In this document: positions 6,480-20,771 of the stretch, piece by piece
How positions within the stretch are numbered: the stretch's first letter is position 1
Layout: each line of letters starts with the position of its first letter
DNA from: Acidobacteriota bacterium
GTDB taxonomy: Bacteria; Acidobacteriota; Terriglobia; UBA7540
Direction of reading: 5' to 3'
DNA: 63,342 nucleotides
NCBI GenBank assembly: GCA_021838785.1
Contig: JAKCCV010000021.1
Location: forward strand, 1 to 63,342
Made by a program: the position numbers and the translations under genes
The notes under the pieces: generated by a model
Told to the model about the DNA's origin: nothing
Seen by the model: the letters and a program-made list of their open reading frames with translations, nothing else
Database searches by the model: none

Positions 6480-8054
6480 TTAGCGCAACCGCGAAAAGTA
6501 GGCCCGTAGAGCATGGACAAGTGCCGGAACTGTGGATTCTTTGGCTTCAAGGGTGACGCGGAAGCCCATCCTCCGAAGCGTCGCGGAGGTCACGGGACCA
6601 ATCGAAACCACGGCTGCCTTGCGAAGAAGTGTGGCTCTGAGGCGTGGGGTCAGTTGCTCGAAGAAATTCACCGCCGTGGATGAGCTGGTGAACGTGATTG
6701 CATCGGGCGGTGGATCGAGCCAGCGCGCCAGGTCTCGGGCGGGAAAGTGAGGTCTTGCGGTCTGGTAGGCTTCGACAACCTCGACCCGCGCGCCCCGTTC
6801 CCGCAGGACGCGCGGCAGCAAATCTCGAGCCATCTTGGCACGTGGAATCAAGAACGACTTGCCGCGAACCTCCTCTTCAGCCAAAGCCTCGATGAGGCCT
6901 TCGGCCTGGTACGTTCTGGGAACAAAATCCACTTTAATGCTTGCCCGGGCAAGTGCTTCGGCGGTGGCCGGACCGATGGCACCGATCTTCAAACCTTTGA
7001 GGTCTCGGGCATCGCGTCCGTTGACGCGCAATCGCTCGAGAAAACTGCTTACGCCGTTTGCCGAGGTCAAAATGAGATAATCAAACGTCTTTAAGCGTCG
7101 GATCGCCCGGTCGAGAGGCGCCCACGAGTTCGGCGGGCGAATTTCAACACAGGGAATTTCCACGACCTCCGCTCCCAGGGCTTCCAAGGGTTCGGCGAGG
7201 CTCGCGGTCTGCTCATGAGCGCGCGTCACCACAATTCTTCGTCCTGATAAGGGGAGCTTTTCATGCCACCGCAAGTGGCGGCTCAGGCGTGCCACTTCGC
7301 CAATGACGGTGACTGCCGGTGGCTCCACATGACGCGCCCGTTGAGCAATGTTAGCAACCGTTCCTTCAATCACCGTCTGCGCGGCGCGCGTTCCCCAGCG
7401 AATCACGGCCGCCGGGGTGCTCGGGGAGTGTCCTTGCTCTATAAGACGCTGCGTAATCTGCGGAAGGTTTCGCACCCCCATGAACAGCACCAAGGTGCCG
7501 ACCCCGGGCGGGAATTGGGCTGCTTCGAGAAAGTGCCGCGATTTGCCGGGGTCTTCGTGTCCGGTGATGAAGGCAACGCTTGAGGCCATCTCTCGGTGCG
7601 TAACGGGTATGCCCGCATAGGCCGGCGCGGCGAGGCCCGATGAAACCCCTGGAACCACTTCAAAAGGAATCCCGACGCGAGCCAGCGCCAAGGCTTCCTC
7701 ACCTCCGCGGCCAAAGACAAACGGGTCTCCTCCCTTCAGCCGAACCACGGTGCGGCCTGCGCGAGCCTTCCGAATGAGCATCCGATTAATGGCTTCCTGC
7801 GCGAACTTGGCGCGGCCACCGCGCTTTCCGACCAAAATGCGCTCGCAGCCGGGTCGGGCATAGCGCAGCAGCGCTTCGTTGGCCAGGCAATCAAAAATCA
7901 CGGAGTCGGCGCGTTCCAGAGCTGTTTTGCCCTTAAGCGTCAAAAGCCCCGGGTCGCCGGGGCCGGCCCCCACCAGATAGACCTTCCCCATCGCGCGGCG
8001 CGGTGTCCGACGGGTAGAGGCGCCGGTGGATTGAGCCTGCAAAGGATTGTCCAT
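6480..8054 (-). CDS. cobA-hemD: Fused uroporphyrinogen-III C-methyltransferase / uroporphyrinogen-III synthase
   Basis: A 524-residue fusion. Residues about 22-265 are a SAM uroporphyrinogen-III methyltransferase (VYLVGAGPGDPGLLTLKG, GGDPFVFGRGGEE, VVPGVSS), which makes precorrin-2 for siroheme or cobalamin. Residues about 270-520 are a HemD-type synthase (RIVVTRAHEQTASL, FDYLILTSANGV, DAITFTSSSTAVNF) that cyclises hydroxymethylbilane. ATG 8054 has AGAAGAAGAG upstream; an internal ATG at 7991 begins right at the domain and is the alternative. It is the last gene of the heme operon and would also supply siroheme to the sulfite/nitrite reductase encoded upstream. Confidence 0.93.
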   Translation of the reverse strand: MDNPLQAQSTGASTRRTPRRAMGKVYLVGAGPGDPGLLTLKGKTALERADSVIFDCLANEALLRYARPGCERILVGKRGGRAKFAQEAINRMLIRKARAGRTVVRLKGGDPFVFGRGGEEALALARVGIPFEVVPGVSSGLAAPAYAGIPVTHREMASSVAFITGHEDPGKSRHFLEAAQFPPGVGTLVLFMGVRNLPQITQRLIEQGHSPSTPAAVIRWGTRAAQTVIEGTVANIAQRARHVEPPAVTVIGEVARLSRHLRWHEKLPLSGRRIVVTRAHEQTASLAEPLEALGAEVVEIPCVEIRPPNSWAPLDRAIRRLKTFDYLILTSANGVSSFLERLRVNGRDARDLKGLKIGAIGPATAEALARASIKVDFVPRTYQAEGLIEALAEEEVRGKSFLIPRAKMARDLLPRVLRERGARVEVVEAYQTARPHFPARDLARWLDPPPDAITFTSSSTAVNFFEQLTPRLRATLLRKAAVVSIGPVTSATLRRMGFRVTLEAKESTVPALVHALRAYFSRLR

Positions 8055-8092
8055 CTCTTCTTCTGGCGCTTTTAAGTAACCGAGACGCGAGG

Positions 8093-8989
8093 CTAGAGGA
8101 ACTCCTTCGCCCCCTTTCGGAGCAACTCCTGCGCCACGTGTCCGCCGACGGTTTCAGGGTCGCTCGGCGCTCCGCTGGCCACCGCAGAGAGGATCCTTGA
8201 GCCGTCCGCCGCTGCCACCACGCCCCGCACTCGCAGCCCCCCGTTCTCCACCACGCCGTAAGCGGCCAGCGGCAATTGGCATCCGCCGCCCAGGGCTCGC
8301 AGCACGGCCCGCTCGGCGCGCACGGCTTGGTGCGCCACCGGCGAGTCGAGCGTCTCTATGGCGGTTCGTATGGCCAAATCACCCTCCCGAATCTCAATCG
8401 CCAAGGCCCCTTGGCCGACCGCCGGGCAGACTTCCTGCTCGAGAAAATATTGGGTCACGCGATGACCGTAGCCAAGACGATTCAAGCCGGCAGCGGCCAG
8501 CACCAACGCCTCGCACTCACCGCGATCGAGCTTGCTCAAACGGGTGTCCACGTTTCCCCGCAGCGCGACAAACTGAAGGTCCGGCCTTAAGGCGTGCAAC
8601 TGCGACTGGCGACGCAGGCTACCCGTGCCCACGCGCGCGCCTTGCGGAAGATCCCGGAAGGAGCGTCCGTCCCTTGAGATCAGCGCATCGCGCGGGTCCT
8701 CGCGTTCCGGCACGGCGCCGAGGATCAATCCATCAGGAAGCTCGCTCGGCAGGTCCTTGAGGCTGTGAACCGCCACGTGGATGCGCTCCTGGAGCAGCGC
8801 CTCTTCGATCTCTTTGATAAAAAGCCCCTTGGTCCCTGAAGCAGTAAGCGGAACGTTCTCCCACCGGTCGCCACTGGTCTTAATGATTTCGATTTCAACC
8901 GAGTGACCAGCCGCTTGAAGCTGTTCCGCCACCCAACGCGCTTGCCAAAGCGCCAGGCGGCTACCCCGTGAGCCGATACGAATCGTCAT
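8093..8989 (-). CDS. hemC: Hydroxymethylbilane synthase (porphobilinogen deaminase)
   Basis: A 298-residue protein with the full family signature: IRIGSRGSRLALWQA at the N-terminus, VHSLKDLPSELPDGL, and GTGSLRRQSQLHALRPDL. The Cys that carries the dipyrromethane cofactor is in LGGGCQLPLAAYG. It polymerises four porphobilinogen units into hydroxymethylbilane, the substrate of the HemD domain encoded next. It sits 30 bp after hemA and 38 bp before the fusion gene on the same strand. Confidence 0.96.
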   Translation of the reverse strand: MTIRIGSRGSRLALWQARWVAEQLQAAGHSVEIEIIKTSGDRWENVPLTASGTKGLFIKEIEEALLQERIHVAVHSLKDLPSELPDGLILGAVPEREDPRDALISRDGRSFRDLPQGARVGTGSLRRQSQLHALRPDLQFVALRGNVDTRLSKLDRGECEALVLAAAGLNRLGYGHRVTQYFLEQEVCPAVGQGALAIEIREGDLAIRTAIETLDSPVAHQAVRAERAVLRALGGGCQLPLAAYGVVENGGLRVRGVVAAADGSRILSAVASGAPSDPETVGGHVAQELLRKGAKEFL

Positions 8990-9018
8990 GCTGCCCTGGG
9001 TTCCGTGATGGGGAAGCG

Positions 9019-10308
9019 TTATTCCGACAGTCTGAAAAGTTTGCGAACGGTGGCCACCAAGGAGGCTTGTTCCGGTTGACCCACGCCGTTTTTCAGTTCA
9101 GTGATCGGGCCGTGAAGGATCTTGTTCAAAATGCCGCGAGAGAGCGCCTCCACGGCCTGACGCTGCTCCGCGGAAAGGCTCGCCAACCGGGCCTCGTACC
9201 GTTGCAGTTCGTTTTCCCGGATTTCCTCCAAGCGCCGCTCGAGCGCCACAATCGTTGGAACCACCTCGCGAGAGGCCATGCGCCGAAGGGTCTTGCGAAC
9301 CTCCTGCTGAATGATCTCTTCCGCCCAAACGGCCTCGCGTTCGCGCTGCTTTTTGTTGGTTTCGACCACCCGGCCCAAGTCGTCAATATCATAAACAAAG
9401 GCGTTCTCAATTTGATTGACGCTCGGCTCCACGTTCCGCGGCACCGCCATATCCACAAAGAACATGCGGCGGTTTTTCCGGGTGGCAAGCCATCGGCGAA
9501 CATCTTCCTCCCGAATTACATAATGCGGCGCGGCCGTGGAGACGATGACGATGTCGGCCTGGTGCGCCTGGCTGTAAAATTCGTCAAAGCGAATGGCCGT
9601 TCCTTGGAAAACGCGGGCCAGCTCCACGGCCCGCTCGTAGGTGCGATTGCTCACGAAAATGGCGCCGGCACCGCTGCGCAGCAGATGCCGCGCGGCGATC
9701 TCGCTCATCTTGCCGGCGCCCAGGACGAAGATCGTTTTACCCGCCAGGTCGCCAAAAATTTTCCTGGCCAACTCCACCGCCGCGTAGGAAACCGAGACGG
9801 CAGCCGCCCCGATGGAAGTCTCGTGTCGCACTCGTTTGCCGACTGTCAGCGCTTGGAGCACGATTTCGTGGAGCGGCCCGTTGAGTGCTCCCACCGACCG
9901 TGCCACCGTGTAAGCCTGCCGGACTTGGCCAAGAATCTGCGGCTCGCCGAGAATCATCGAGTCAAGGCTCGAGGCCACGCGAAACAAGTGCTGGATAACC
10001 TCCTCGTCGTGGCGGCGGTAGAAATGCCGCTCGTAAGGAGCCAAATCACACCGGTGATGCTCGGCCAGAAATTGCCGAATCGTGGGTTCCGGGTCCAAAC
10101 CGGGGGTCGCGCGCACGATGGTCTCGACGCGGTTGCAAGTGGAGAGGATCAGGGCCTCCTGGATGCCGTCGCGATGGGCCAGATCGGCCACGGCCTCCGC
10201 CAGCCGCGACTCGCTGATGTTCATCTGCTCCCGCACCTCTACCGGCGCCGTGCGGTGGCTGATACCGACCAACGTTAGGTTCATTGTCGAGCGCATGGCC
10301 GTCCGCAT
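9019..10308 (-). CDS. hemA: Glutamyl-tRNA reductase
   Basis: First committed enzyme of the C5 heme pathway, reducing glutamyl-tRNA to glutamate-1-semialdehyde. Seen are the N-terminal LVGISHRTAPVEVRE, the catalytic Cys in LSTCNRVE, the NADPH-binding FVLGAGKMSEIAARHL, and the C-terminal dimerisation helix region. I placed the start at ATG 10308, which has GAGAGA four bases upstream; ATG 10284 begins immediately before the conserved domain and is equally possible. It lies between ccsA and hemC in one leftward operon. Confidence 0.95.
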   Translation of the reverse strand: MRTAMRSTMNLTLVGISHRTAPVEVREQMNISESRLAEAVADLAHRDGIQEALILSTCNRVETIVRATPGLDPEPTIRQFLAEHHRCDLAPYERHFYRRHDEEVIQHLFRVASSLDSMILGEPQILGQVRQAYTVARSVGALNGPLHEIVLQALTVGKRVRHETSIGAAAVSVSYAAVELARKIFGDLAGKTIFVLGAGKMSEIAARHLLRSGAGAIFVSNRTYERAVELARVFQGTAIRFDEFYSQAHQADIVIVSTAAPHYVIREEDVRRWLATRKNRRMFFVDMAVPRNVEPSVNQIENAFVYDIDDLGRVVETNKKQREREAVWAEEIIQQEVRKTLRRMASREVVPTIVALERRLEEIRENELQRYEARLASLSAEQRQAVEALSRGILNKILHGPITELKNGVGQPEQASLVATVRKLFRLSE

Positions 10309-10353
10309 AAATTCTCTCAATTTAGGCTGCGCCTCGGTGTGACGCCCGTCACC

Positions 10354-11184
10354 TTAACGTGGGGGGCCAAGGTTCGGGAAATAACCGTGAAAACCGCTCA
10401 AAAAGCTGATGCCCACAAAGGTCACCATCATGACGGCAAATCCGACCAACGCTCCGTAAGCCGATTGCCGGCCCCGCAAGTGTCCGCTCAGACGCGCTGA
10501 GAGTAGGAAGAGATAAACGAGCCAGGTGATGAGCGCCGCCAGAATTTTGGGGTCAAGTTCCCACGGGCCCCGCCACATGCGGCTCGCGCCGATAAACCCG
10601 CTCAGAATCCCGACGGTCAACAACGTAAAACCCCACAGCAGTGAGCGGCGATAAAGCTCGTCGCAAACCTCCAGTGACGGCAGGCGGGAATAAACCGCTC
10701 GCGGCTTCTTCGATTTAAGTTCATTTTCTTGAATCAAATACATGACCGCCGCCACGGCGGTTAAAAAGAACGCTGTGTACCCCAGCAAAACGCAACCCAC
10801 GTGCACCATCAGCCAGCGGCCGCGAAAAGCGGGCGAAAGGAGGGTGCGTCCCGGCTCAAGCACGGCGATGACCGTGAGCAGAAAAGCCAAGGGCAACATG
10901 AAAATGCCGAACCAGTTGATTCGATAGCGGAGGTAGGCAAAGAAAAAGGCCAGCGTGATGAGAAAGGCGAAAAAGGACAGCGCGCTCCGCAAATCCGTGA
11001 CCGGGAAGTGGTGGGTTCGCGCGGCCAACCGGGCGATCCCGGCCGCATGGGCCAGTAACCCCAGCCCGATGATGGCCAGTGCCGCCCGCGAAAGTGACGC
11101 TCGGCCTCGGAGCGCCGGCGGAAACACCAGCGCGATGCCGAAACCATAAAAAATCACCGCGCCCCACAACAGTGCAACGTGCAT
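10354..11184 (-). CDS. Cytochrome c assembly / HemX-like membrane protein (CcsA family)
   Basis: About 276 residues with eight predicted hydrophobic helices and the CcsA/CcmC/HemX pattern. Conserved His residues lie near HHFPVTDLRSALSF and in MVHVGCVLLGYTAFFL, and the tryptophan-rich loop reads RMWRGPWELDPKIL. Family members handle heme for cytochrome c maturation or help control HemA levels. Being the first gene before hemA is the classic hemX position. The ATG at 11184 is used; a TTG at 11208 sits almost at the predicted transcription start. Confidence 0.85.
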   Translation of the reverse strand: MHVALLWGAVIFYGFGIALVFPPALRGRASLSRAALAIIGLGLLAHAAGIARLAARTHHFPVTDLRSALSFFAFLITLAFFFAYLRYRINWFGIFMLPLAFLLTVIAVLEPGRTLLSPAFRGRWLMVHVGCVLLGYTAFFLTAVAAVMYLIQENELKSKKPRAVYSRLPSLEVCDELYRRSLLWGFTLLTVGILSGFIGASRMWRGPWELDPKILAALITWLVYLFLLSARLSGHLRGRQSAYGALVGFAVMMVTFVGISFLSGFHGYFPNLGPPR

Positions 11185-11214
11185 AGAACCGGCCGGATAT
11201 TCGGCCAAGGCTTG

Positions 11215-11339: not shown

Positions 11340-13079
11340 CTATCCGGCGCATTCACCGCGCCCCAGCTTGAGCGAATAGCGCTGTTCGTCTCCCCAGTCC
11401 ACAAACAAATCGGCCGCTTCTTGCGTGGTGTCCGCGAAAGGACGAAGCGCGTCGGCCAGCGTGTCTTTCGTCGCGCGGAGCGCCCAATCGCCAAAAGCCT
11501 CGCCCGGCGCGCGTTCCTGGCGATAAAGCTCAATGACGGCACGCAGCGCCTGCGGGACCCGCTTGGCCGGAATGGGCAGAATCTGCCGCCCAAACCGCAC
11601 TCCGTCGGCTGAGACCCTGCCGCCGAGCATGACTTGGTAGTAAGGCGCCTGTTGCTCGCCCACCTTGCGCGCGTTCCCGTAAAGGCCGATGTCGGCAATG
11701 TGGTGCTGGCCGCAGGAGTTCGGGCAGCCGCTGATTTTGATCCGAATCTTTTTGATTTCCGGGTCCGTCTCACCCGCAAACTCGTCGGCTAAGACTTCCG
11801 CCAGCGTCAATGACCGCGTGATGCCCAAGTTGCACGTCGTCGAGCCGGGGCATCCTGTCACGTCGGCGATGGTGCGCGCGCCCGGCGCTGCCAACCCAAG
11901 CGCCTGAAGATCGCGGAAAATTTCCGGCGCGCGATACGCCGGCACCCAAGGAATCACCAAGTCTTGAGAGATGGCAATGCGCAGCGCCGGCAGCTTGTAT
12001 TTATCGAGCAAATTCGCCAACCCGCGAAATTGCGCCACCGAGATGTTGCCCGCCAGCAGCTTGACCCAAACAATCACATGGCCCGGCTGGCGCTGCGGTT
12101 GGAGGTTGTGCTCGGCCCAGCGATGAAATTCAGCCCCGTGGCCGTTGCCCTGTACGGAGGGCGGAGTGAGCGCTACGAGCGGTGCTGAGAGCGGATTCGT
12201 GCGCTCGGGCAACCGTGGCGGCGTCGTGACGGTGGCTCGTTTCTCCGCCACAAGCCGACGAAACTCCTCGATGCCTTTGTCACGCAGCACAAACTTCATG
12301 CGCGCCTTGTATTTATTTTTGCGGTTGCCGTGCTCGTTGAAGACCCGAAGAATCGCCTCCATGGTCGGAATCAATTCTTCCTCGGGCAGGAAGTCAGTGA
12401 GCGTGGCGGATTCGGTCGGCAAGCTGCCCAACCCCCCGCCCACCAGGACCTTAAAGCCGCGACGCCCCGTTCCGTTACTGCCCCGCACCTGAGCGATCAG
12501 CCCAATATCATGAATTCCCGCCACCGCGCAGTTTCCGTCATCCGGGCAACCGGAAAAAGCGATCTTGAACTTGCGCGGCAAATCATGGAACTCGGGGTGC
12601 CGCAAAAAGAAGCGCGTGGTCTCAAGCGCGTACGGCGTCACATCAAACACCTCGTTCCCGCAAACCCCCGCTAGCGCGCAGGAAGTGACGTTGCGGACGG
12701 TGTTCCCGCAAGCCTCCCGCGTTGTCAAGCCGACTTCGGCCAGTTGCCGCATAATCGCCGGGACATGGCTTAACTGAACAAAATGAAACTGGCAGTTCTC
12801 GCGGGTAGTCACATGGCCGCGGCCGGTTGCATAGGTTTCGGCAATCGCCGCCAACGTGCGGAGCTGCTGCGCACCGAGAATACCCGAAGGAATCTTCACG
12901 CGCACCATCTGGACTCCCGGCTGGCGTTGTCCGTAAATCCCATGCTTCAGCCGAAAAGGCCGGAACTGCTCTTCGGTAATCTCGCCGCGCTGGAGCTGCC
13001 CAACCCGCTCTTCAAAAATGCGGATCTCTTCCTGGATAGCCTCCGGCGCATGACGATCCTGAACTTCCGTGGCTAACAT
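11340..13079 (-). CDS. Ferredoxin-dependent sulfite/nitrite reductase
   Basis: A 579-residue siroheme and [4Fe-4S] reductase with both ferredoxin-like half domains. The cluster/siroheme ligands are in TGCPGSTTCNLG and SGCPNSCGQHH near residues 425-470, and YATGRGHVTTRENCQFHF and SGCPDDGNCAVAG are the matching N-half motifs. ATG 13079 has GGAGG five bases upstream. Sequence alone does not separate sulfite from nitrite as substrate, but the poly-cysteine leader peptide upstream favours assimilatory sulfite reduction. The neighbouring cobA-hemD supplies the siroheme precursor. Confidence 0.9.
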   Translation of the reverse strand: MLATEVQDRHAPEAIQEEIRIFEERVGQLQRGEITEEQFRPFRLKHGIYGQRQPGVQMVRVKIPSGILGAQQLRTLAAIAETYATGRGHVTTRENCQFHFVQLSHVPAIMRQLAEVGLTTREACGNTVRNVTSCALAGVCGNEVFDVTPYALETTRFFLRHPEFHDLPRKFKIAFSGCPDDGNCAVAGIHDIGLIAQVRGSNGTGRRGFKVLVGGGLGSLPTESATLTDFLPEEELIPTMEAILRVFNEHGNRKNKYKARMKFVLRDKGIEEFRRLVAEKRATVTTPPRLPERTNPLSAPLVALTPPSVQGNGHGAEFHRWAEHNLQPQRQPGHVIVWVKLLAGNISVAQFRGLANLLDKYKLPALRIAISQDLVIPWVPAYRAPEIFRDLQALGLAAPGARTIADVTGCPGSTTCNLGITRSLTLAEVLADEFAGETDPEIKKIRIKISGCPNSCGQHHIADIGLYGNARKVGEQQAPYYQVMLGGRVSADGVRFGRQILPIPAKRVPQALRAVIELYRQERAPGEAFGDWALRATKDTLADALRPFADTTQEAADLFVDWGDEQRYSLKLGRGECAG

Positions 13080-13090
13080 CCAAACCTCCA

Positions 13091-13132
13091 AAATAAAAAA
13101 CCCACCTTCAGGATTGCTATCCGAAGGTGGGT
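13091..13132 (-). terminator. Intrinsic terminator/attenuator directly before the sulfite reductase gene
   Basis: On the reverse strand CCCACCTTC (13131-13123) pairs with GAAGGTGGG (13109-13101), with a further inner GGAT/ATCC pairing and an AGCA loop, followed by TTTTTTATTT. The U-run ends only a few bases before the GGAGG of the reductase gene. A terminator between promoter and gene is only useful if conditional. Confidence 0.9.
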
Positions 13133-13176
13133 GTTTGATGACCTTAGAAGAACTAGCTTAATTTAGCGTGGCGCCA

Positions 13177-13260
13177 TCATCTCTCACACCCCCGGATAGG
13201 CGGACAACAACACCCCATAGCTTTTGCCCATCCAGGTTGGAGAGAATGTGCCATGACCAT
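13177..13260 (-). CDS. Poly-cysteine leader peptide of the sulfite reductase gene
   Basis: A 27-codon ORF on the reverse strand, ATG at 13260 and TGA at 13179-13177. Its core is AMGCCCPPIRGCER, with three consecutive TGT Cys codons (13212-13204) and a fourth at 13188-13186. The predicted transcription start is about four bases before the ATG, so it would be translated from an almost leaderless mRNA. It ends 45 bases before the terminator hairpin. The layout is that of an amino-acid attenuator: stalling at Cys codons when Cys-tRNA is scarce would free GGGTGT (13191-13186) to pair with ACACCC (13134-13129) and break the terminator's 5' arm. The coding assignment is read directly; the mechanism is inferred. 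Confidence 0.75.
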   Translation of the reverse strand: MVMAHSLQPGWAKAMGCCCPPIRGCER

Positions 13261-13270
13261 TAACACTTGA

Positions 13271-13299
13271 ATTATAGGCCAGGATCCTACAAAAAGCAA
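13271..13299 (-). promoter_or_regulatory. Promoter of the leader peptide / sulfite reductase transcript
   Basis: Reverse strand: -35 TTGCTT (13299-13294), 17-bp spacer, perfect -10 TATAAT (13276-13271). Transcription would start near 13264, about four bases before the leader-peptide ATG at 13260. Confidence 0.7.
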
Positions 13300-14110: not shown

Positions 14111-14187
14111 GGGCGGTTAGCTCAGCCGGTCAGAGCGTCTGCCTTACAAGCAGAAGGTCATCCGTTCGAGCCGGATACCGCCCACCA
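14111..14187 (+). tRNA. tRNA-Val (anticodon TAC)
   Basis: Complete cloverleaf: acceptor GGGCGGT/ACCGCCC, anticodon stem TCTGC/GCAGA with loop CTTACAA (TAC), T arm with GTTCGAGCC, and encoded CCA. It lies 133 bp before tRNA-Asp. Confidence 0.96.
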
Positions 14188-14320
14188 TCAAAATCAAGGG
14201 TGGTATCTCGACGTGAGATTTCCAATGCCGGACGCGGCGGCTGAATTTCCCGCCGCGTCGGCGGGTGGCCGCTTCGGCGCCTGGCGAGATGGTCAGCCCT
14301 TCGCACGACCATCCCATTCC

Positions 14321-14397
14321 GGGGACGTAGTTCAGCTGGTTAGAACGCATGCCTGTCACGCATGAGGCCGCGGGTTCGAGTCCCGTCGTCCCCGCCA
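14321..14397 (+). tRNA. tRNA-Asp (anticodon GTC), integration target
   Basis: Complete cloverleaf with acceptor GGGGACG/CGTCCCC, loop CTGTCAC (GTC), T arm GGTTCGAGTCC and encoded CCA. Its 3' part from 14353 is repeated at 19388-19436, marking it as the attachment site of the 5-kb element that follows. Confidence 0.97.
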
Positions 14398-14401
14398 GCT
14401 T
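14353..14401 (+). repeat. Attachment-site repeat, tRNA side (att left)
   Basis: A 49-bp direct repeat, identical to 19388-19436, running from the tRNA-Asp anticodon loop through the CCA into AGCTT. Integration regenerates the intact tRNA here. Confidence 0.95.
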
Positions 14402-14414
14402 AAAACCCCACACG

Positions 14415-15722
14415 TCATTGAATTACCCTCGAAACGGGCTTCGGCTCTACTCCCAACTTGGGAGCAATTGGGAGCAAAACTTCCGCCGTCTTATTGGCAA
14501 TTTTCTTCTGCGCCTCCGGCATCGGCTGAGTATAGACGCCCAAGGTCAGCCTTGAATCCGTGTGCCCTAACTGACTCTGAAGCGCCTTGATACTCTCCCC
14601 TGTCGGCTCCGCCCACGTGGAGTAGGTATAGCGGAAAACGTGCCAACCCACATGCGGCAAGCCCGCGCGTTCACAGGCCGGATTAAGAACCCGCTTCAGT
14701 ACGTTGCTTTGCTGAAGAGGTTTCCCATTCTCGCCCGCAAACACGAAATCGTCAGGCTGGAACTGCTGAGGCCGCAAAGCCCGAAGCGCGTCCATCACAA
14801 TCTGGGAGACGAACACTTTCCGCCGAGAGGCCCGCGTCTTAACCGGTACTGCGCGCCCCTCGAAGTTCGACTCCAAAACCAGAATGGAACTATCCTCGAA
14901 GCTCACAGCCTTCCACCTCAGCCCGAAAATTTCACCACGCCGAAGACCGCTGAGCAACGCCAGCAAAACCATCGTGTGCACCGGCTCAGAAAGTTCCGAG
15001 AGCAAACGTCGCGCCTCTTCCGGCCTCAGCGTGCGCCGCCCTCGGACATCTTCAAGCGCCGGAATTCTCGCCCCTTGTGCGGGATTCTTTTCTATGTACC
15101 CCCAACGAATCGCGTCGCCGAAAATCTTCAACAACCGATTCCTTAGAGAGAGCACTGTACGGGGAGCTAGAGACTTTGACTTTTGCGAAAGGAACATCTG
15201 GACTTCCATCGGCGTAATCTCTGGCACCTGTTTCGTCCCGAAAAAGGGGAGCAAATGAACCCGAACCAGCATCCGGTAATTGCGTTCCGTCGAAAGCCGC
15301 AAAGTCGGATAGATATTCGGTTCCCAGCGCTCTAAAACGAACTTCTCAAAAGAAATCGCCATCTCCGGCTTGCGCGTTCCCTGATTAATGGCCGCCAGCC
15401 GCTCCGCCAGCCTGCGCAAAGCCTCGCGCTTGCCAACCTCACGGCACAGCCCCAAAACCACGGAACGCTCGCGCCGCTTTCTCTGACCATCCTCCGTAAG
15501 GAAATCCTCGCGGAAGCGGCCTACCCAAACCGGACGGCGCTTTCCTCGCTTAAACAACCAACCTCCTTGCCATCTTGGTCGAGCCACAAAGTCTCCTTTC
15601 TCTGTGGCCCGCCTTGCGCCGCTCACAATATCACAAGACATCGCCTTTCCCAAACCGCTTCCCAAATTGCCAATTTCTGCGGCCTGGGATGCCCTAGCAC
15701 GCGACATTGTGAGCGAACCCAT
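14415..15722 (-). CDS. Tyrosine site-specific integrase
   Basis: A 435-residue phage-type integrase. Residues about 120-210 are a core-binding SAM-like domain (FVLERWEPNIYPTLRLSTERN) and residues about 230-420 the catalytic domain. Arg I is in LLSGLRRGEIFGLRW, box II in WHVFRYTYSTW, then LGHTDSRLTLGVYTQ with the nucleophilic Tyr. All catalytic positions are present, so it should be active. ATG 15722 starts three bases after the stop of the rep gene, with GGGGAG upstream, so it is translationally linked to rep. An unusually long N-terminus (about 60 residues) precedes the arm-binding region. Its 3' end contains the left copy of the arm-like repeat. Confidence 0.93.
   Translation of the reverse strand: MGSLTMSRARASQAAEIGNLGSGLGKAMSCDIVSGARRATEKGDFVARPRWQGGWLFKRGKRRPVWVGRFREDFLTEDGQRKRRERSVVLGLCREVGKREALRRLAERLAAINQGTRKPEMAISFEKFVLERWEPNIYPTLRLSTERNYRMLVRVHLLPFFGTKQVPEITPMEVQMFLSQKSKSLAPRTVLSLRNRLLKIFGDAIRWGYIEKNPAQGARIPALEDVRGRRTLRPEEARRLLSELSEPVHTMVLLALLSGLRRGEIFGLRWKAVSFEDSSILVLESNFEGRAVPVKTRASRRKVFVSQIVMDALRALRPQQFQPDDFVFAGENGKPLQQSNVLKRVLNPACERAGLPHVGWHVFRYTYSTWAEPTGESIKALQSQLGHTDSRLTLGVYTQPMPEAQKKIANKTAEVLLPIAPKLGVEPKPVSRVIQ
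14456..14479 (+). repeat. Integrase arm-type repeat, left
   Basis: Two tandem copies of TTGGGAGCAA-type sequence lying inside the 3' end of the integrase gene, about 55 bp from the att core. The same double motif in the same orientation occurs at 19281-19305 near the other end, so these are likely integrase arm-binding sites. Confidence 0.6.
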
Positions 15723-15724
15723 AC

Positions 15725-16303
15725 CTACCTACTCCCCAACCGGAAGAAATCGCCTGGAAGGCTTGCGGATGGCACCACCTCACATCCTTGCGTTGCTTTG
15801 AGCTCCGTGGCACCTACCAACCGGAAGCTATCGCCGAATCGAGCAATCCTGTGAGCCTCAAGACCACCCCCAAAGTGAAATTCTCCGAGTTCCTTCGCCG
15901 AATACTTCGCCGCGTAGAACGACGCCGCGCGCGCCCTCTCGCAAGGCTCAATCCGGCTCCGGCCAAATCGCCTGTATGCCTCTTTCCACCAAAACCCCCT
16001 ATTCAGAAACCGAACGTCCGCCACCAAGATATGGCAATGAAACCGCCCACCAAGCGCCCCTAATTCCTCGGCAATCAGATAAGCGAAGTTCAAGCCCGCT
16101 TCCCTTCTGACCAAATCGAGCCAAGCCTTGACTTCCGCTACGGCACGCGCTGAATCAGTCACCTCATTGCGAAAGGTTATCGTGCAAAACCAGTCCCACG
16201 CCGCAAGGCTTACAATGAACTCCCCATAAGCCTCCGGCAAAGCACTCCGCTCTCGCCTCCTTCTCGCCCACCGCTCCTGCAACCTTCCGTGGTCTCTCAG
16301 CAC
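15725..16303 (-). CDS. HUH-endonuclease replication initiator (Rep)
   Basis: About 192 residues carrying the three motifs of rolling-circle initiators: motif I WFCTITFRNE, motif II GGRFHCHILVAD (the HUH metal-binding His pair), and motif III FYAAKYSAKE with the catalytic Tyr. Motif III resembles the YxxKYxxK form of Microviridae and inovirus-like Reps. GTG 16303 is chosen because GGAGG lies eight bases upstream; a TTG at 16327 would add eight residues. The protein would nick a double-strand origin, and a repeat/hairpin cluster lies immediately upstream at 16356-16393. Rep and integrase form one operon. Confidence 0.85.
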   Translation of the reverse strand: MLRDHGRLQERWARRRRERSALPEAYGEFIVSLAAWDWFCTITFRNEVTDSARAVAEVKAWLDLVRREAGLNFAYLIAEELGALGGRFHCHILVADVRFLNRGFWWKEAYRRFGRSRIEPCERARAASFYAAKYSAKELGEFHFGGGLEAHRIARFGDSFRLVGATELKATQGCEVVPSASLPGDFFRLGSR

Positions 16304-16355
16304 CAACTGACCTCCACTCCAGCCCAACTAGACACACTCGTGGCGACAAGGATGG

Positions 16356-16393
16356 TCTGTATCCTGTATCTGTATCCTGTATAACCAGGATAC
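16356..16393. repeat. Iteron plus hairpin, candidate replication origin or operator
   Basis: Two tandem 13-bp copies of TCTGTATCCTGTA (16356-16381). The GTATCCTG of the second copy pairs with CAGGATAC (16386-16393) across a six-base loop. It lies about 50 bp upstream of the rep start. HUH initiators commonly bind iterons and nick in an adjacent hairpin, so this is the best double-strand-origin candidate in the element. Confidence 0.55.
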
Positions 16394-16488
16394 TGACCAC
16401 CGGCTGGTTGCTCTGCGCCCGTTCCTACAGAGTTCCCAGTCCTGCCGCTTTTTTATCCGGCTCCGGCGCGTTCGGGCCAGGCTTCACT

Positions 16489-16571
16489 TTCGGGCTAGGC
16501 GCGCCGTATGCCGTCACGGGTCGTCAAGCGGTGAGACGTTGCCCGCACTGTGGCCCTGCCTAGCCCGAAAC
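16489..16571. repeat. 13-bp inverted repeat spanning 83 bp downstream of the SpoVG-like gene
   Basis: TTTCGGGCTAGGC (16489-16501) and its exact complement GCCTAGCCCGAAA (16559-16571) flank 57 bp. It abuts the stop of the SpoVG-like gene. It could be a single-strand origin, a packaging-type hairpin or a terminator; there is no U-run. Confidence 0.5.
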
Positions 16572-16572
16572 C

Positions 16573-16908
16573 TTAGAAGGGAACCGATTCCTTTTGCCTC
16601 TCCTCTTCGTACCGCTCCAGCACTGCCGCGCAAATGCGGCGCTTCAGCTCGCCGTCAGCCTCAACGACCGGATACCACCGGCTCCCGCTCGGCTTCTGCG
16701 GAAAGCCAACCCATGCCGGCCCCTTGCTGTTGGCCGGCAAAACGGAAAGGCCATAGACCGTCAGCGACCCTTCGGCGCCGAGGGACACTTCCACGTCGGC
16801 GTAAGCGGCCACCTTCCCCTCGCCATTCGTGGGACGGTAATCACTCACCCGCACTGCGCAATTTGACTTGACTTCAGGTTGGGCGTTTTGTAGAGTAGTT
16901 TTCGACAT
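16573..16908 (-). CDS. SpoVG-like protein
   Basis: A 111-residue protein. Residues about 17-105 resemble the SpoVG fold family: VRVSDYRPTNGEGKVAAYAD, a central LTVYGLSVL, then WVGFPQKPSGSRWYPVVEAD and a final helix LKRRICAAVLERYEEE. SpoVG proteins bind nucleic acids. ATG 16908 has AGGAAA a few bases upstream. Within this ssDNA-type element, a role in binding or regulating element nucleic acid is plausible but unproven. Confidence 0.65.
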   Translation of the reverse strand: MSKTTLQNAQPEVKSNCAVRVSDYRPTNGEGKVAAYADVEVSLGAEGSLTVYGLSVLPANSKGPAWVGFPQKPSGSRWYPVVEADGELKRRICAAVLERYEEERQKESVPF

Positions 16909-16954
16909 AAGTTTCCTTTCTGGGCCACGCCGGTAAGCGTGGCCCTTTGGTTTT

Positions 16955-17161
16955 TTAGGGAACCAGCCAATCCAGAAAATCTGCCCGCGGCCTAGCCGGA
17001 CGTCCCTTCGGCCGACGCTTACGCCGGGCATACACCTGTTTCGCCTCCAGCGCTTTTAAGTGAGTGGCCAACCCTGGCTTCAACTGCTCTGGAGTTTTGG
17101 GACTGTCCAGAGCCTTGCGAATTCCCCTGATTCTTTCTTTCAATGTCAGCGCATGCCGCAT
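16955..17161 (-). CDS. Small basic protein of the integrative element
   Basis: A 68-residue, strongly basic protein (MRHALTLKERIRGIRKALD, then YARRKRRPKGRPARPRA). ATG 17161 has GGGAGG eight bases upstream, a good start. The N-terminal half looks helical and the C-terminal half is an Arg/Lys-rich tail, as in small DNA-binding proteins. I do not recognise the family. It heads the leftward gene run towards spoVG-like, rep and int. Confidence 0.6.
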   Translation of the reverse strand: MRHALTLKERIRGIRKALDSPKTPEQLKPGLATHLKALEAKQVYARRKRRPKGRPARPRADFLDWLVP

Positions 17162-17207
17162 AAACATTGCCTCCCAGCAAAATTCCCTAATTCACGACCT
17201 ACTCTGA

Positions 17208-17213
17208 TATAAT
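17208..17213 (+). promoter_or_regulatory. Candidate -10 box of the forward gene in the element
   Basis: TATAAT lying in the divergent region between the small basic gene and the forward ORF at 17242. No good -35 is visible at the expected spacing. Confidence 0.4.
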
Positions 17214-17241
17214 CTGAGGTGTCTAGAAAAGGACGAATTTT

Positions 17242-17742
17242 ATGCCGAACATGCGACATACCAACTATCTCGAAGAAAACAAAGGAAATAAAGTTCCTAC
17301 CGAGGCCAATTCTCAAAACTCATGCGACATACCCACCAAAGAAATCAATCAGATGGGCCAGAAAACGGAGGTAATCCGATGGCCCCTGAAAGACGAAATC
17401 GCATGGATGGAGGAACGGCTTCGTGAGCAGGAAGACCCCGAATGCAGTAGATACGTTCCAAGACACGTGCCCAAGGCAGAAGACATCAAAGTCTGGCTTG
17501 CACGCAAGAGGGACAAGAAATCGTGGGGAGCTATCGCTAAGGAAATTCTCGGTGCCGATGAAAACAACTTGGAAGCCAAACTCTCGCTAGCAAGGCGAGC
17601 CTACGAGAGGGTCGAGAGATACTGGACAACTCCGAAGTCTGATGACTGGAAAAAGAAAATCCCGCTTGAGCTAAGGCACTTGGCAGAGCCGGTCGGTGAT
17701 AACACGGCTATCCAAAGGTCGGTCTTTCACTCGCTTCACTGA
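17242..17742 (+). CDS. Uncharacterised protein of the integrative element
   Basis: A 166-residue charged soluble protein, the only forward gene in the element. It starts with ATG after AAAGGACG. Its codon use is AT-richer than its neighbours. The central part (DIKVWLARKRDKKSWGAIAK, then a helix with LSLARRAYERVERYW) has the look of a helix-turn-helix with preceding regulatory helices, so it may be a repressor facing the divergent promoter. No family recognised. Its last 35 bases overlap the convergent winged-helix gene. Confidence 0.6.
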   Translation: MPNMRHTNYLEENKGNKVPTEANSQNSCDIPTKEINQMGQKTEVIRWPLKDEIAWMEERLREQEDPECSRYVPRHVPKAEDIKVWLARKRDKKSWGAIAKEILGADENNLEAKLSLARRAYERVERYWTTPKSDDWKKKIPLELRHLAEPVGDNTAIQRSVFHSLH

Positions 17743-17971
17743 GCCACGCCAACCGCTCTCGGCCCCGCTCCGAAAGCGTGTATTCCACGAACGGCAATTC
17801 ACGCCGATGCACCAAACCCCATCGCTTCAACCGCGCCATGTATCCGTACAAGTCATCCGCTCCATAACCGAGAGCCAGGGCAAGTTCCTTCGGCCTCCGC
17901 CAACCTTGCGAAGCCAGCGTTGCGAGCACTTCCCGCTTAAGCCTGTTGTATCGCCGCATTCCCGCCCTCAC
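17708..17971 (-). CDS. Winged-helix DNA-binding protein
   Basis: An 87-residue protein with a simple winged helix-turn-helix pattern: LKREVLATLASQGWRRPKEL, then LGYGADDLYGYMARLKRWGLV and a wing VEYTLSERGRERL. The GTG start at 17971 overlaps the TGA of the ATPase gene as GTGA, indicating translational coupling; an ATG at 17959 is the alternative. It is probably a regulator of the element. Confidence 0.7.
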   Translation of the reverse strand: MRAGMRRYNRLKREVLATLASQGWRRPKELALALGYGADDLYGYMARLKRWGLVHRRELPFVEYTLSERGRERLAWLSEASERPTFG

Positions 17972-18582
17972 GTTCTTAGAACCCGCCTAGCAGCTTCCGG
18001 CCCCATCGCGTAGGACTCCGCAAGGTTCACGTCATAGACGAGCGCTGAATATCTCGGAAGCTCTTGCACCGCCCGCCGAAACTCTGAGCCTGTACGCGCC
18101 TCGATTGCTTGCAAGTCTATCGGCTCTCCCGCATGAAAGATCACGAAAGCATCGCACTGCGCCGTCAGTGTGCGGGGAACCTCAGCAAACCTCTGCGCCG
18201 TCCAAATGATATTCAGCCCATGATGCCGACCTTGTAGCACCAGCCGCTCAAATTCCCTCGGCATCGAACCCGCGCTTGAGAATGATGGAATCTCTTCGAG
18301 GCCAATCGTGACCAAATTGCAGCCGAAAGCCGTCTCGCAAAACCCGTGTATCTCTTCGAGTGACCTCGGCACCAGCCTAACGGCGAACCTGGCCCGCTGG
18401 TGGCATTGAATCAAGAAATTCCTAAGACCGCCAATATCAGTCACAGTATTCGGAACCCACTCATGCTCACCCGTCGCATCCCAAAGCAGAATCCGTGGGC
18501 ACCAAGAGAGAATCCTCACGAAAGCATTGCTCTTGCCACTTCCCTTTCGCCCTACAATCCCGATGATGCGATTCTGTTTCAT
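17968..18582 (-). CDS. HerA/FtsK-superfamily P-loop ATPase (Zot- or packaging-ATPase-like)
   Basis: A 204-residue ATPase: Walker A GIVGRKGSGKSN at residues about 8-19, Walker B LVTIGLEEIPSF near 98-109, and the sensor stretch GRHHGLNIIWTAQRF followed by LTAQCDAFVIFH. This is the pattern of the HerA/FtsK family that includes Zot/pI morphogenesis proteins and viral genome-packaging ATPases. Unlike Zot there is no transmembrane helix after the ATPase domain. ATG 18582 overlaps the stop of a single-TM peptide gene (ATGA), so the pair may act together at the membrane. A role in DNA transfer or particle assembly is inferred. Confidence 0.8.
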   Translation of the reverse strand: MKQNRIIGIVGRKGSGKSNAFVRILSWCPRILLWDATGEHEWVPNTVTDIGGLRNFLIQCHQRARFAVRLVPRSLEEIHGFCETAFGCNLVTIGLEEIPSFSSAGSMPREFERLVLQGRHHGLNIIWTAQRFAEVPRTLTAQCDAFVIFHAGEPIDLQAIEARTGSEFRRAVQELPRYSALVYDVNLAESYAMGPEAARRVLRT

Positions 18583-18758
18583 GGCAAACTCTTTCGCAAC
18601 CTCTCGGCGTCCGCTTCTGTCCAATCCTTCCACTGCGCGCTTACACGTTTCGGACGTTCCGGCCTTCCATCCTCGGAAGGCTTTCCTCGCTTGGCAGCAA
18701 CTACCAAGCCCGCCACCATCGCCACCAAAAGCCAAACCACTGCTAGCCTCGCCTCCAC
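18579..18758 (-). CDS. Single-transmembrane small protein coupled to the ATPase
   Basis: A 59-residue ORF starting at GTG 18758. After MEAR comes one strong transmembrane helix (LAVVWLLVAMVAGLVVAA), then a basic cytoplasmic-type tail (KRGKPSEDGRPERPKR) and an amphipathic end. The TGA overlaps the ATG of the ATPase gene, the tightest form of translational coupling. Size and topology resemble coat or assembly proteins of filamentous phages, or the membrane part missing from the ATPase. The start is uncertain; the 5' end overlaps the preceding gene by about 16 bases. Confidence 0.65.
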   Translation of the reverse strand: MEARLAVVWLLVAMVAGLVVAAKRGKPSEDGRPERPKRVSAQWKDWTEADAERLRKSLP

Positions 18759-19129
18759 TCCAGAATTTCCATGCGCCGGATGACCTCGTTAAGGCTATTC
18801 CCGCCTGGACTCGAACTCTTGCTCTGCGGCTTCCCGCGACCAAAGAGAGACGGAAAGAGAACCTTGTGGAGCGGCCAAAACATAATCAGCCTCATACGCC
18901 TCTTTTGCCTCTCCAATTCCTCCGGCGTAACCCTCACGATGGGAGCCTGTGGAACCTTCGTCAGAGACGAACTGACCACCTGCGCATCAATTACCCTCGC
19001 CGACGGCCCTTGCCTCTTTCCCCGAACCAAGCCCGACTGTGCGCCTTGGCTCACAGCCAGCGCACAATGCCGAGCCTGAGCGGCCTTATTCGCAACCCGC
19101 TTATGACATCTTGGGCAATATAAAGGCAT
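18743..19129 (-). CDS. Zinc-ribbon protein of the integrative element
   Basis: A 128-residue protein beginning MPLYCPRCHKRVANKAAQARH, with a CxxC and a following His-Cys that look like a treble-clef or C2H2-type zinc knuckle. A basic linker, a hydrophobic-amphipathic segment (MRLIMFWPLHKVLFPSLF) and a charged C-terminus follow. Family not recognised. It is the first gene of the leftward cluster containing the TM peptide, ATPase and winged-helix protein. Confidence 0.55.
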   Translation of the reverse strand: MPLYCPRCHKRVANKAAQARHCALAVSQGAQSGLVRGKRQGPSARVIDAQVVSSSLTKVPQAPIVRVTPEELERQKRRMRLIMFWPLHKVLFPSLFGRGKPQSKSSSPGGNSLNEVIRRMEILEWRRG

Positions 19130-19280
19130 CAAAACCCCCGTTATAAATGGGCACGGCACGCAAGGCACGTAGGCTTATAATCCCAAAGGCACTCCGACCG
19201 TAACCTTGCAAATTAAAATCAATTAAATGCCCTTGGGCAGGGCAGGCAGGGCACGCAGACCTTGCTATAAACAAGCCAAA

Positions 19281-19305
19281 ACTTGGGAGCAACTTGGGAG
19301 CAAAA
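19281..19305 (+). repeat. Integrase arm-type repeat, right
   Basis: ACTTGGGAGCAACTTGGGAG and following CAAAA, a tandem double motif matching the left copy at 14456-14479 apart from one inserted base. It lies about 83 bp from the right att core. Confidence 0.6.
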
Positions 19306-19387
19306 ACCTCAATTTCCGACCGAAAAGGGACTTTCCAAACCATTGAAATGCAAGGCAGGCCACAGGTTAAAGTCATACCTTTTCACT

Positions 19388-19436
19388 CTGTCACGCATGA
19401 GGCCGCGGGTTCGAGTCCCGTCGTCCCCGCCAGCTT
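19388..19436 (+). repeat. Attachment-site repeat, distal (att right)
   Basis: Second copy of the 49-bp tRNA-Asp 3' segment. It lacks the 5' half of the tRNA, so it is a fragment and not a second tRNA gene. Confidence 0.95.
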
Positions 19437-19474
19437 CTTATCACAGGAACATCCACTGCTTGAGGTTGCTGGCG

Positions 19475-19669
19475 TCGTCGCGAGTCACTTTCTCAGTATC
19501 ATCACAGTTACTCAACGCTACTCCATGCATTGGGAGCCGCCGCTGCTGCCCAGAAAGAGGTGTTGCGTCACGCGAATATCCAGACTACGATAAATATCTG
19601 CACCCAAGCCGCCCCCCGGCCAAGCGGGAGGCGGCACCGAAGGTCGTGGATGTTCTCTGGCGAATGTAA
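19475..19669 (+). pseudogene. Tyrosine recombinase C-terminal remnant
   Basis: One forward frame reads AAAAAQKEVLRHANIQTTIN, the conserved box around the third His of tyrosine recombinases. The match continues in another frame as PAKREAAPKVVDVLWRM, the usual tail of this integrase type. A frameshift near 19605 and the missing N-terminus make it a relic. It lies just outside the right att site, suggesting an older element used the same tRNA-Asp. Confidence 0.75.
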
Positions 19670-19731
19670 GGTGTACGAGTTTGTACTCGCGACAAGTAAC
19701 GGAGATTCGTAAGTGATTTAGAATCAATCGT

Positions 19732-19808
19732 GCGCCCGTAGCTCAGCTGGATAGAGCACTTGCCTACGAAGCAAGGGGTCGGGTGTTCGAATCACCCCGG
19801 GCGTACCA
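19732..19808 (+). tRNA. tRNA-Arg (anticodon ACG)
   Basis: Cloverleaf with acceptor GCGCCCG pairing with CGGGCGT (one G-U), anticodon stem CTTGC/GCAAG with loop CTACGAA (ACG), T arm with GTTCGAATC, and encoded CCA. Confidence 0.96.
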
Positions 19809-19867
19809 TTCTTTTCAATAACTTAGGTCGGTTTACCCGGAGTTCAAAAGTACCAGTTCGTGCCACT

Positions 19868-20160
19868 TCACGCCTCAAGCAGTTTCTTCGTGAGTTTCCG
19901 GATTGCTTTCCGCTTTGCCGGAGCCATCGCCCAAGGGTAGATGTTCATGGTTGTCTTCACGTCAGCATGCCGGAGAAGCTCTTTCTGCACCGCCAGGTCA
20001 GTCCCCATGTCGTGAATCAACGTGGAGAACGAGTGCCTGAACGTGTGCCATCCAATTCTGCCAATACCGGCCTTTTCGGCGGCAGGTTGGATGTGGTCGC
20101 GAAAGAGGACGCCCCTCCAGCGAGGCCGACCGGAATCGCCTGCGAGCACAGAGTCTGTTG
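19868..20160 (-). pseudogene. Tyrosine recombinase C-terminal fragment next to tRNA-Arg
   Basis: The reverse frame encodes WHTFRHSFSTLIHDMGTDLA, then QKELLRHADVKTTMNIY and PAKRKAIRKLTKKLLEA. Box II, the third His and the nucleophile Tyr are all intact. Upstream of about 20160 the frame stays open to 20506 but no longer looks like an integrase, and Arg I is absent. It is therefore a truncated gene left by an element once integrated beside tRNA-Arg. Confidence 0.8.
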
Positions 20161-20771
20161 GCGCAGCACCGGAGAGAACCTGACCGTGGCCCTTGAGCAT
20201 CTCCGGTGGCGGAAGTGGTTCTGAAAATCCAGACGCTGGAATGCGAAATTGCGACACAAGCGGCGACGGGGCTTGCTGATGCGGGGAGCGAAAGAGGTTG
20301 GTCGCGGTTCTCCACTTGCGCTTGCTTCCGATGCATAATTCTGCATCGCGCTCATGATGTCCTCGCCAATGATGCGCCAAGCGGAGCACAACGCTCTTGC
20401 ATCCGCCTCGGACTCGCTGGCGCTTCGGTTGAAGGAGGCAAAATACCCTCCCCAATCGAAAAAGCGGGCTCGGCCGTGCATCCAGCGCGGCTGAGCAATT
20501 AAGCAATCTGAGCTTACGTGACCCATGATCTTTAACACAATTTTGGATTAGGCTCTAGTCAAGCTGTCTATTGGCCGTCAAATTCAGATCCAATTCAAAA
20601 AATAAAGCGTTTTTCTTTCAACCTGTGTCATAATAGTAGTGGTTTGTCGCACTGTGTTCCCTGGAGTTGTACCCAAACGCCGCGCGAGCCAAGAACGCGG
20701 ATTTTGTGTTTTTCAGCCCTTGGGAGAAGGTAGCGAACAGACAACATCAAAAACAAGGAGTAGAAGTAAAC
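20161..20771. other. Region without a supported gene (integrase debris and cold-shock leader)
   Basis: Open but unconvincing reverse frames continue to about 20538 and look like decayed element DNA. From about 20600 the sequence is AT-richer. With a CATAAT near 20631, the last 130 bp probably form the promoter and long 5' leader of the cold-shock gene. Confidence 0.4.

Follow-up and report, generated by a model that had tools for sequence, protein, structure and literature searches.

We find that a short leader region upstream of a sulfite reductase gene in an Acidobacteriota genome is, very probably, a cysteine-responsive and ribosome-mediated transcription attenuator of the classical four-segment type. 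This assignment was made without expression, ribosome-profiling or cysteine data. The element lies in a 63,342-nucleotide stretch of contig JAKCCV010000021.1, the whole of which was analysed and is termed the window. In computational terms it meets the traits of an attenuator: a leader open reading frame (ORF) rich in codons of the pathway, a terminator before the first gene, and 1:2 and 2:3 pairings that exclude each other. Leader and hairpin probably switch the sulfite reductase on at cysteine shortage, for which there are no experimental data.

Anatomy of the leader region

The elements listed below make up the leader region, in the order in which they would be transcribed.

13271..13299, minus strand: predicted promoter, with -35 TTGCTT at 13299-13294, a 17-nt spacer and -10 TATAAT at 13276-13271
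13177..13260, minus strand: leader peptide ORF MVMAHSLQPGWAKAMGCCCPPIRGCER, 27 codons, ATG at 13260 and TGA at 13179-13177
13226..13240, minus strand: segment 1 (protector arm), which pairs with segment 2 (S1:S2 p=0.003)
13204..13212, minus strand: regulatory codons, three UGU Cys codons (codons 17-19), read from the sequence
13187..13199, minus strand: segment 2 CTATCCGGGGGTG, the 5' arm of the antiterminator, which includes part of the fourth Cys codon
13117..13129, minus strand: segment 3 CACCTTCGGATAG, common to antiterminator and terminator
13090..13132, minus strand: intrinsic terminator (segments 3:4) and T-tract, consisting of the hairpin 13132-13100 plus TTTTTTATTTT
13085..13089, minus strand: Shine-Dalgarno sequence GGAGG of the reductase gene, read from the sequence

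A sequence-only reading of this DNA had described a consensus promoter that starts a near-leaderless 27-codon ORF with three adjacent TGT codons plus a fourth. The ORF is present on the minus strand, with Cys at codons 17-19 and 25, the last at 13188-13186. The promoter claim holds for the -10 element, which is a perfect TATAAT. It is too strong for the -35 element, because TTGCTT matches the consensus at three of six positions only and the promoter scanner gave nothing except an overlapping alternative, TTGATA-17-TAGGAT (13312-13284). If transcription starts at about 13264, as predicted from the promoter, the 5' UTR of the leader measures approximately 4 nt. Thus, the leader ORF is predicted to be near-leaderless from promoter spacing, in the absence of a mapped transcript start.

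The terminator is as strong, and as close to the ribosome-binding site of the gene, as had been proposed. Its folding energy is -22.2 kcal/mol, compared with a shuffle mean of -7.4 (z -6.8), the hairpin begins 44 nt after the leader stop codon, and the T-tract ends at 13090, directly abutting the GGAGG at 13089-13085. The proposed pairing between GGGTGT at the fourth Cys codon and ACACCC at the terminator base also exists, but it is only one register of a stronger antiterminator in which 13199-13187 pairs with 13129-13117. This S2:S3 helix has 13 contiguous pairs, two of them G-U, and beats 99% of shuffles (p 0.007); for the stretch that contains both segments the folding energy is -29.8 (z -3.2). 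The idea of a stall-dependent antiterminator is therefore supported, but the device is not as simple as was suggested, since the helix is longer than proposed and is rivalled by the 1:2 protector hairpin (-30.8 kcal/mol, z -3.3).

The position of segment 2 relative to the Cys codons is of importance for the model. Counted from the first nucleotide of the initial Cys codon (codon 17), segment 2 starts after 13 nt, and a ribosome stalled on this codon would have its leading edge at roughly this point, if the ribosome footprint known from other work is used to place it. The 3' end of segment 2 is 8 nt short of the stop codon, so that a ribosome that has reached the stop covers most of the segment. 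We propose that transcription yields a near-leaderless mRNA, on which a ribosome would begin the leader ORF at once. With plentiful Cys-tRNA the ribosome would reach the stop codon and cover segment 2, so that 3:4 could pair and transcription would terminate before the sulfite reductase gene. With scarce Cys-tRNA it would wait at codons 17-19, break the pairing of segment 1 and leave segment 2 free ahead of it. The free segment 2 would then capture the emerging segment 3 over 13 bp, no terminator would form, and the sulfite reductase gene, perhaps together with the siroheme genes behind it, would be transcribed. Finally, without any ribosome, the 1:2 hairpin would protect segment 2 and the terminator would form. 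The sequences directly show the anatomy, its conservation, the complementarity of the segments and the match between codons and pathway; initiation close to the 5' end, stalling, the switch itself and the response to cysteine are all inferred.

The reductase gene and its neighbours

Two further features define what the attenuator is predicted to control.

11340..13079, minus strand: regulated reductase gene, a siroheme 4Fe-4S sulfite/nitrite reductase of the NirA type
6480..11208, minus strand: ccsB-like, hemA, hemC-like and cobA/hemD-like genes, 3' of the reductase gene on the same strand

The best solved relative of the reductase is NirA of Mycobacterium tuberculosis (1zj8), and its NCBIfam scores are below all curated cut-offs. 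A role as nitrite reductase was weighed on the same grounds, the sub-threshold NCBIfam scores and the name of the closest solved relative. The assignment to sulfite therefore leans in part on the Cys leader and on the known substrate of M. tuberculosis NirA, which we take to be sulfite. A TTG at 13091 was considered as the start codon of the gene and rejected; the real start is the ATG at 13079.

Of the neighbouring genes, hemC and cobA/hemD were named from sequence only. The genes at 6480..11208 are possible distal targets of the attenuator, although there are no co-transcription data. Siroheme genes lie behind the reductase gene on the same strand, and siroheme supply may therefore be co-regulated with it. 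In other loci (L128, L157, L185) siroheme genes have Cys leaders of their own.

On the far side of the leader the window carries genes for tRNA-Val (14111), tRNA-Asp (14321) and tRNA-Arg (19732). A tyrosine-recombinase-like ORF (14415-15722, minus strand) adjoins tRNA-Asp, and close to tRNA-Arg there is another integrase-like fragment (19868-20506, minus strand). A mobile element has probably integrated at 14111-20506, immediately upstream of the attenuator.

Conservation at reductase loci

With the reductase protein as query, 101 related genomes were searched, and the upstream regions of 70 loci were inspected. At 38 of these 70 reductase loci, the one in the window among them, a comparable short ORF carries a Cys run, and 37 of the 38 have a terminator that was usable for analysis. 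Under a strict rule, which demands a Cys-run ORF followed by a terminator, 30 of the 70 loci score when the sense strand is read, compared with 1 of the 70 for the antisense strand (197 kb). The combination of Cys ORF and terminator is therefore found more often than expected by chance. The leader is missing from about half of the reductase orthologues at the 70 loci, above all from those of families f4, f5 and f8. At four reductase genes without a Cys leader (L012, L015, L017, L020) we observed an AT-rich, near-palindromic motif just upstream, for example AATCTCTATAGAGTAAT, which is possibly the operator of a DNA-binding regulator that replaces attenuation.

The Cys runs mostly comprise 3-7 codons, as in the leaders MICCCCCCCM (L018), MRLLLQPERAMAMCCCCPSVRGCGR (L004) and MRLSLQLGMAMCCCCGVAVPTCGG (L008), and the clusters differ in length and spacing (CCC, CSRCC, CACCC, up to 7 consecutive). 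Outside the Cys run and the codons of segment 2 the leader peptides vary. The original proposal would have been refuted by a terminator that is kept without the Cys codons; at the 37 reductase loci the two are found together. L005, L027 and L063 have Tyr, Trp or Val in place of the fourth Cys but retain the G-rich sequence, so that this codon looks to be kept mainly for its nucleotides in the antiterminator. Cys codons in the leaders are UGU in 146 and UGC in 47 cases, compared with 3 UGU and 15 UGC in four neighbouring genes of the window.

The promoter arrangement recurs as well. A TTGAC -35 core is found at a similar distance upstream in 28 of 38 homologous leaders. The -10 element mostly ends 3-14 nt before the leader ATG, and the predicted 5' UTR is therefore approximately 0-6 nt, with transcription starts unmapped. 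Only 3 of 38 leaders have a motif resembling a Shine-Dalgarno sequence before their ATG.

Complementarity of the segments is observed at many of these loci. In the homologue alignment the consensus terminator arm AACCCACCGTCGG and its partner arm change together: 91.8% of the cells in the homologous terminator helix are paired, and both sides have changed at 4 pairs, compared with 1.3 in shuffles. The antiterminator helix is 88% paired in alignment A1 and 32-59% paired when slid by 1-3 columns. Moreover, 76% of the 37 loci have an S2:S3 complementarity above that of dinucleotide shuffles at p<0.05. For S1:S2 this is the case in 49% of them, which makes the protector pairing the weaker of the two. 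Combined p-values are indicative only, because the loci share ancestry and their independence is overstated. Segment 2 starts 10-31 nt after the first Cys codon in 32 of 37 loci.

These data bear on the possibility that control is translational, as it is in mycobacteria, with a stalled ribosome altering access to the downstream ribosome-binding site and the hairpin acting as a mere structural switch. Near-leaderless polycysteine short ORFs that attenuate translation are known there, as PMC9031893 reports with reference to Canestrari 2020, and leaders of the type found in the window are predicted to be near-leaderless too. However, the hairpin ends in the T-tract TTTTTTATTTT, the GGAGG lies outside its stem, T-tracts are conserved at the other loci, and mycobacterial leaders are described without terminators (PMC1262725). 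We consider translational control quite unlikely.

It could also be argued that a short ORF happens to precede a constitutive terminator or an unrelated riboswitch-like element. Short ORFs are common, and in the host genome (3.4 Mb, 38 contigs) only one copy was found, a covariance-model search having revealed no second Cys leader. Yet the Cys run is conserved in frame with the terminator across many genera, the genes downstream are functionally coherent, and an Rfam scan of the window at the gathering score returned tRNAs only, without a T-box, a SAM or other riboswitch or a known amino-acid leader. A coincidence of this kind is barely conceivable. In the host genome the APS/PAPS reductase gene lacks a Cys leader, and TGYTGYTGYTGY occurs 15 times compared with 8 times for the backwards pattern that served as control (raw counts; sites were not inspected singly).

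Ribosome position and pairing of segment 3

For an in silico assay of transcription attenuation, the RNA was folded up to the terminator loop with the part covered by the ribosome masked, and the expected number of pairs between segment 3 and upstream sequence was used as the readout. Averaged over loci, this number is 14.9 for a ribosome stalled at the first Cys codon and 5.3 for one at the stop codon. Segment 3 is captured better from the first-Cys stall than from the stop codon in 36 of 37 loci. The switch predicted for a ribosome at the Cys codons is therefore seen in the folding. When segment 2 is shuffled, the stalled mean drops to 10.4, and the real sequence gives the higher value in 37 of 37 loci. 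The window leader itself has a modest contrast (14.2 at the first Cys codon, 10.8 at the stop codon), with segment 3 still finding upstream partners when the ribosome is at the stop codon. In full-length equilibrium folding with segment 4 present the terminator wins in nearly every ribosome state, and the switch must therefore be kinetic. Kinetic switching is accepted for other attenuators.

Probable Cys attenuators at other sulfur genes

A covariance model, R2, was built from 22 reductase leaders. Within the class, 151 of 399 genomes contain a match to it, as do 17 of 396 genomes spread over the phylum at a stricter cut; some genomes have 2-5 matches. Cys-rich leaders precede sulfite reductases, a CysD-like sulfate adenylyltransferase, a CysH-like reductase and cysteine synthase; siroheme synthase, SUMT-like genes, rhodaneses and TauE/SafE transporters; and NMT1-like ABC binding proteins, a DsrE-like protein, TonB-type outer-membrane proteins and peroxiredoxin genes. 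The names CysH, cysteine synthase, SUMT and peroxiredoxin rest on sequence, those of the remaining targets on Pfam. S2:S3 complementarity exceeds that of dinucleotide shuffles at p<0.05 in 22 of 27 loci found with the model, which mostly lie before genes other than reductases. Two rhodanese loci (L112, L114) had no clean Cys leader or terminator by rule and were left out of the 27. One match of the phylum-wide search (L154) proved to be a 5S rRNA-like stretch with a terminator and was discarded as a false positive.

We also noted a leader and terminator before CarboxypepD_reg/TonB-type outer-membrane proteins at L108, L116, L129 and L134. The leaders are Cys-rich at L108, L129 and L134, and weakly so at L116 (MGRTLQFGTVVCRVCTPLVPTWRGIA). 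These units suggest cysteine-controlled uptake of a sulfur compound.

In family f10, a Cys leader and terminator are followed by a tRNA-Cys (GCA) gene on the same strand in 16 of 30 loci, and the same is found at three further loci.

tRNA-Cys-linked loci: L144, L162, L163, L178-L181, L184, L186-L190, L193, L194, L196, L197, L199, L200

In most of them a peroxiredoxin gene lies between terminator and tRNA-Cys. At L144, L188 and L193 no more than a few hundred bases separate the tRNA-Cys gene from the terminator, and no protein gene is evident in this interval. As tRNA-Cys decodes the regulatory codons, such an arrangement would feed back on the sensor itself, provided that the two are co-transcribed. 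Co-transcription has not been demonstrated, and a separate tRNA-Cys promoter is possible. If it does occur, a tRNA gene would be controlled by ribosome stalling on its own codons. At L198 (about 584-682, minus strand) ARAGORN predicts a tRNA-SeC, upstream of which lie a Cys leader (MLPGFMAIRRTCAGCCTSAPGCG) and a peroxiredoxin-like gene.

Threonine and tryptophan leaders

Some matches of the model lie before aspartokinase genes (L126, L135, L136, L140, L141, L146, L147) and have Thr-rich leaders, for example MSIAKKRITSKSSMSTTTTTTKKIMTASGDGRNS and MISTSAKRITTATTTSKTSTTWMCTIFAFGAGRNS, with a terminator of the same type. These seven loci lack Cys codons and were considered as failures of the model; this was ruled out, as they are aspartokinase genes with Thr-rich leaders. 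The aspartokinase units are likely threonine attenuators, resembling E. coli thrL. Similarly, at L153 and L159 a short ORF containing WW or WWW and a terminator stand before trpE-like genes, which are likely under the control of tryptophan attenuators in Acidobacteriota. Terminator sequence and layout of the Thr and Trp attenuators are similar to those of the Cys units, whereas the codons are Thr or Trp. As judged from these sequences, the regulatory codons follow the pathway and the layout stays, which is a natural control for codon specificity.

This control is relevant to a further explanation, in which the poly-Cys nascent chain itself detects the state of thiols, redox or metals and halts the ribosome, the signal then being something other than a shortage of Cys-tRNA. 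Peroxiredoxin genes are also preceded by Cys leaders, and poly-Cys chains could, by inference, bind metals or be oxidised. However, there is no peptide conservation outside the Cys run, the Cys clusters vary in length and spacing, and the Thr-rich leaders before aspartokinase and the Trp codons before trpE are found in the same architecture, which fits codon sensing. We therefore regard sensing by the nascent chain as very unlikely and retain ribosome stalling at Cys codons as the preferred reading.

Relation to known attenuators

Leader peptides with Cys runs before cys operons have been noted in Actinobacteria, without terminators (PMC1262725), and a 2015 proposal for mycobacteria presented attenuation directed by cysteine as a would-be first case (PMC4633059). 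In M. smegmatis, leaderless polycysteine short ORFs attenuate translation, according to Canestrari 2020 as cited in PMC9031893 and PMC13236596. The mycobacterial ORFs resemble those described here in that they contain a Cys run, are leaderless or near-leaderless (in our case by prediction only) and lie upstream of cysteine or sulfur operons. They differ in that theirs is a translational mechanism without a terminator, whereas here an intrinsic terminator competes with an antiterminator. Moreover, they belong to another phylum, and no sequence relation to the Acidobacteriota leaders was seen.

The predicted cysS attenuator uORFC-8-2 of Rhodobacterales has two Cys codons and a terminator (PMC8632094). 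It is alike in having a tandem-Cys upstream ORF, an intrinsic terminator and a predicted ribosome-mediated transcription attenuation. It is, however, confined to cysS in Rhodobacterales and its two codons are mostly UGC (PMC8632094), whereas the Acidobacteriota units have mostly 3-7 codons, mainly UGU, and precede sulfur assimilation and tRNA-Cys genes. The window does not qualify as a member of uORFC-8-2, as its gene is a sulfite/nitrite reductase and its phylum Acidobacteriota. With the trp, his, thr and leu attenuators of Proteobacteria the units share segments 1:2, 2:3 and 3:4, a leader rich in the product amino acid and a terminator before the first gene. Here, in contrast, the amino acid is cysteine, the leader is predicted to be near-leaderless and is mostly without a Shine-Dalgarno sequence, and several operons per genome are involved in some relatives.

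In a 2010 survey almost no attenuator predicted in Acidobacteria had an assigned function (PMC2965389), and in the open literature we found no description of Acidobacteria or cysteine attenuation of this kind. The mechanism is thus classical, and what appears to be new is the amino acid, the phylum, the breadth over several operons, the near-leaderless leader and the link to tRNA-Cys. A wider proposal is that Acidobacteriota control their cysteine and sulfur metabolism for the most part through a network of near-leaderless transcription attenuators with Cys codons that spans several operons, covers assimilation, siroheme, transporters and peroxiredoxin and includes the tRNA-Cys gene, so that the attenuator would control the supply of the tRNA it reads; we see the chances of this proposal as evenly balanced. 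Within a single phylum, transcription attenuation at Cys codons appears to be in use across the sulfur genes, and the Thr and Trp versions serve as natural controls; the units are simple to test and offer a marker of cysteine starvation for soil bacteria that are hard to grow.
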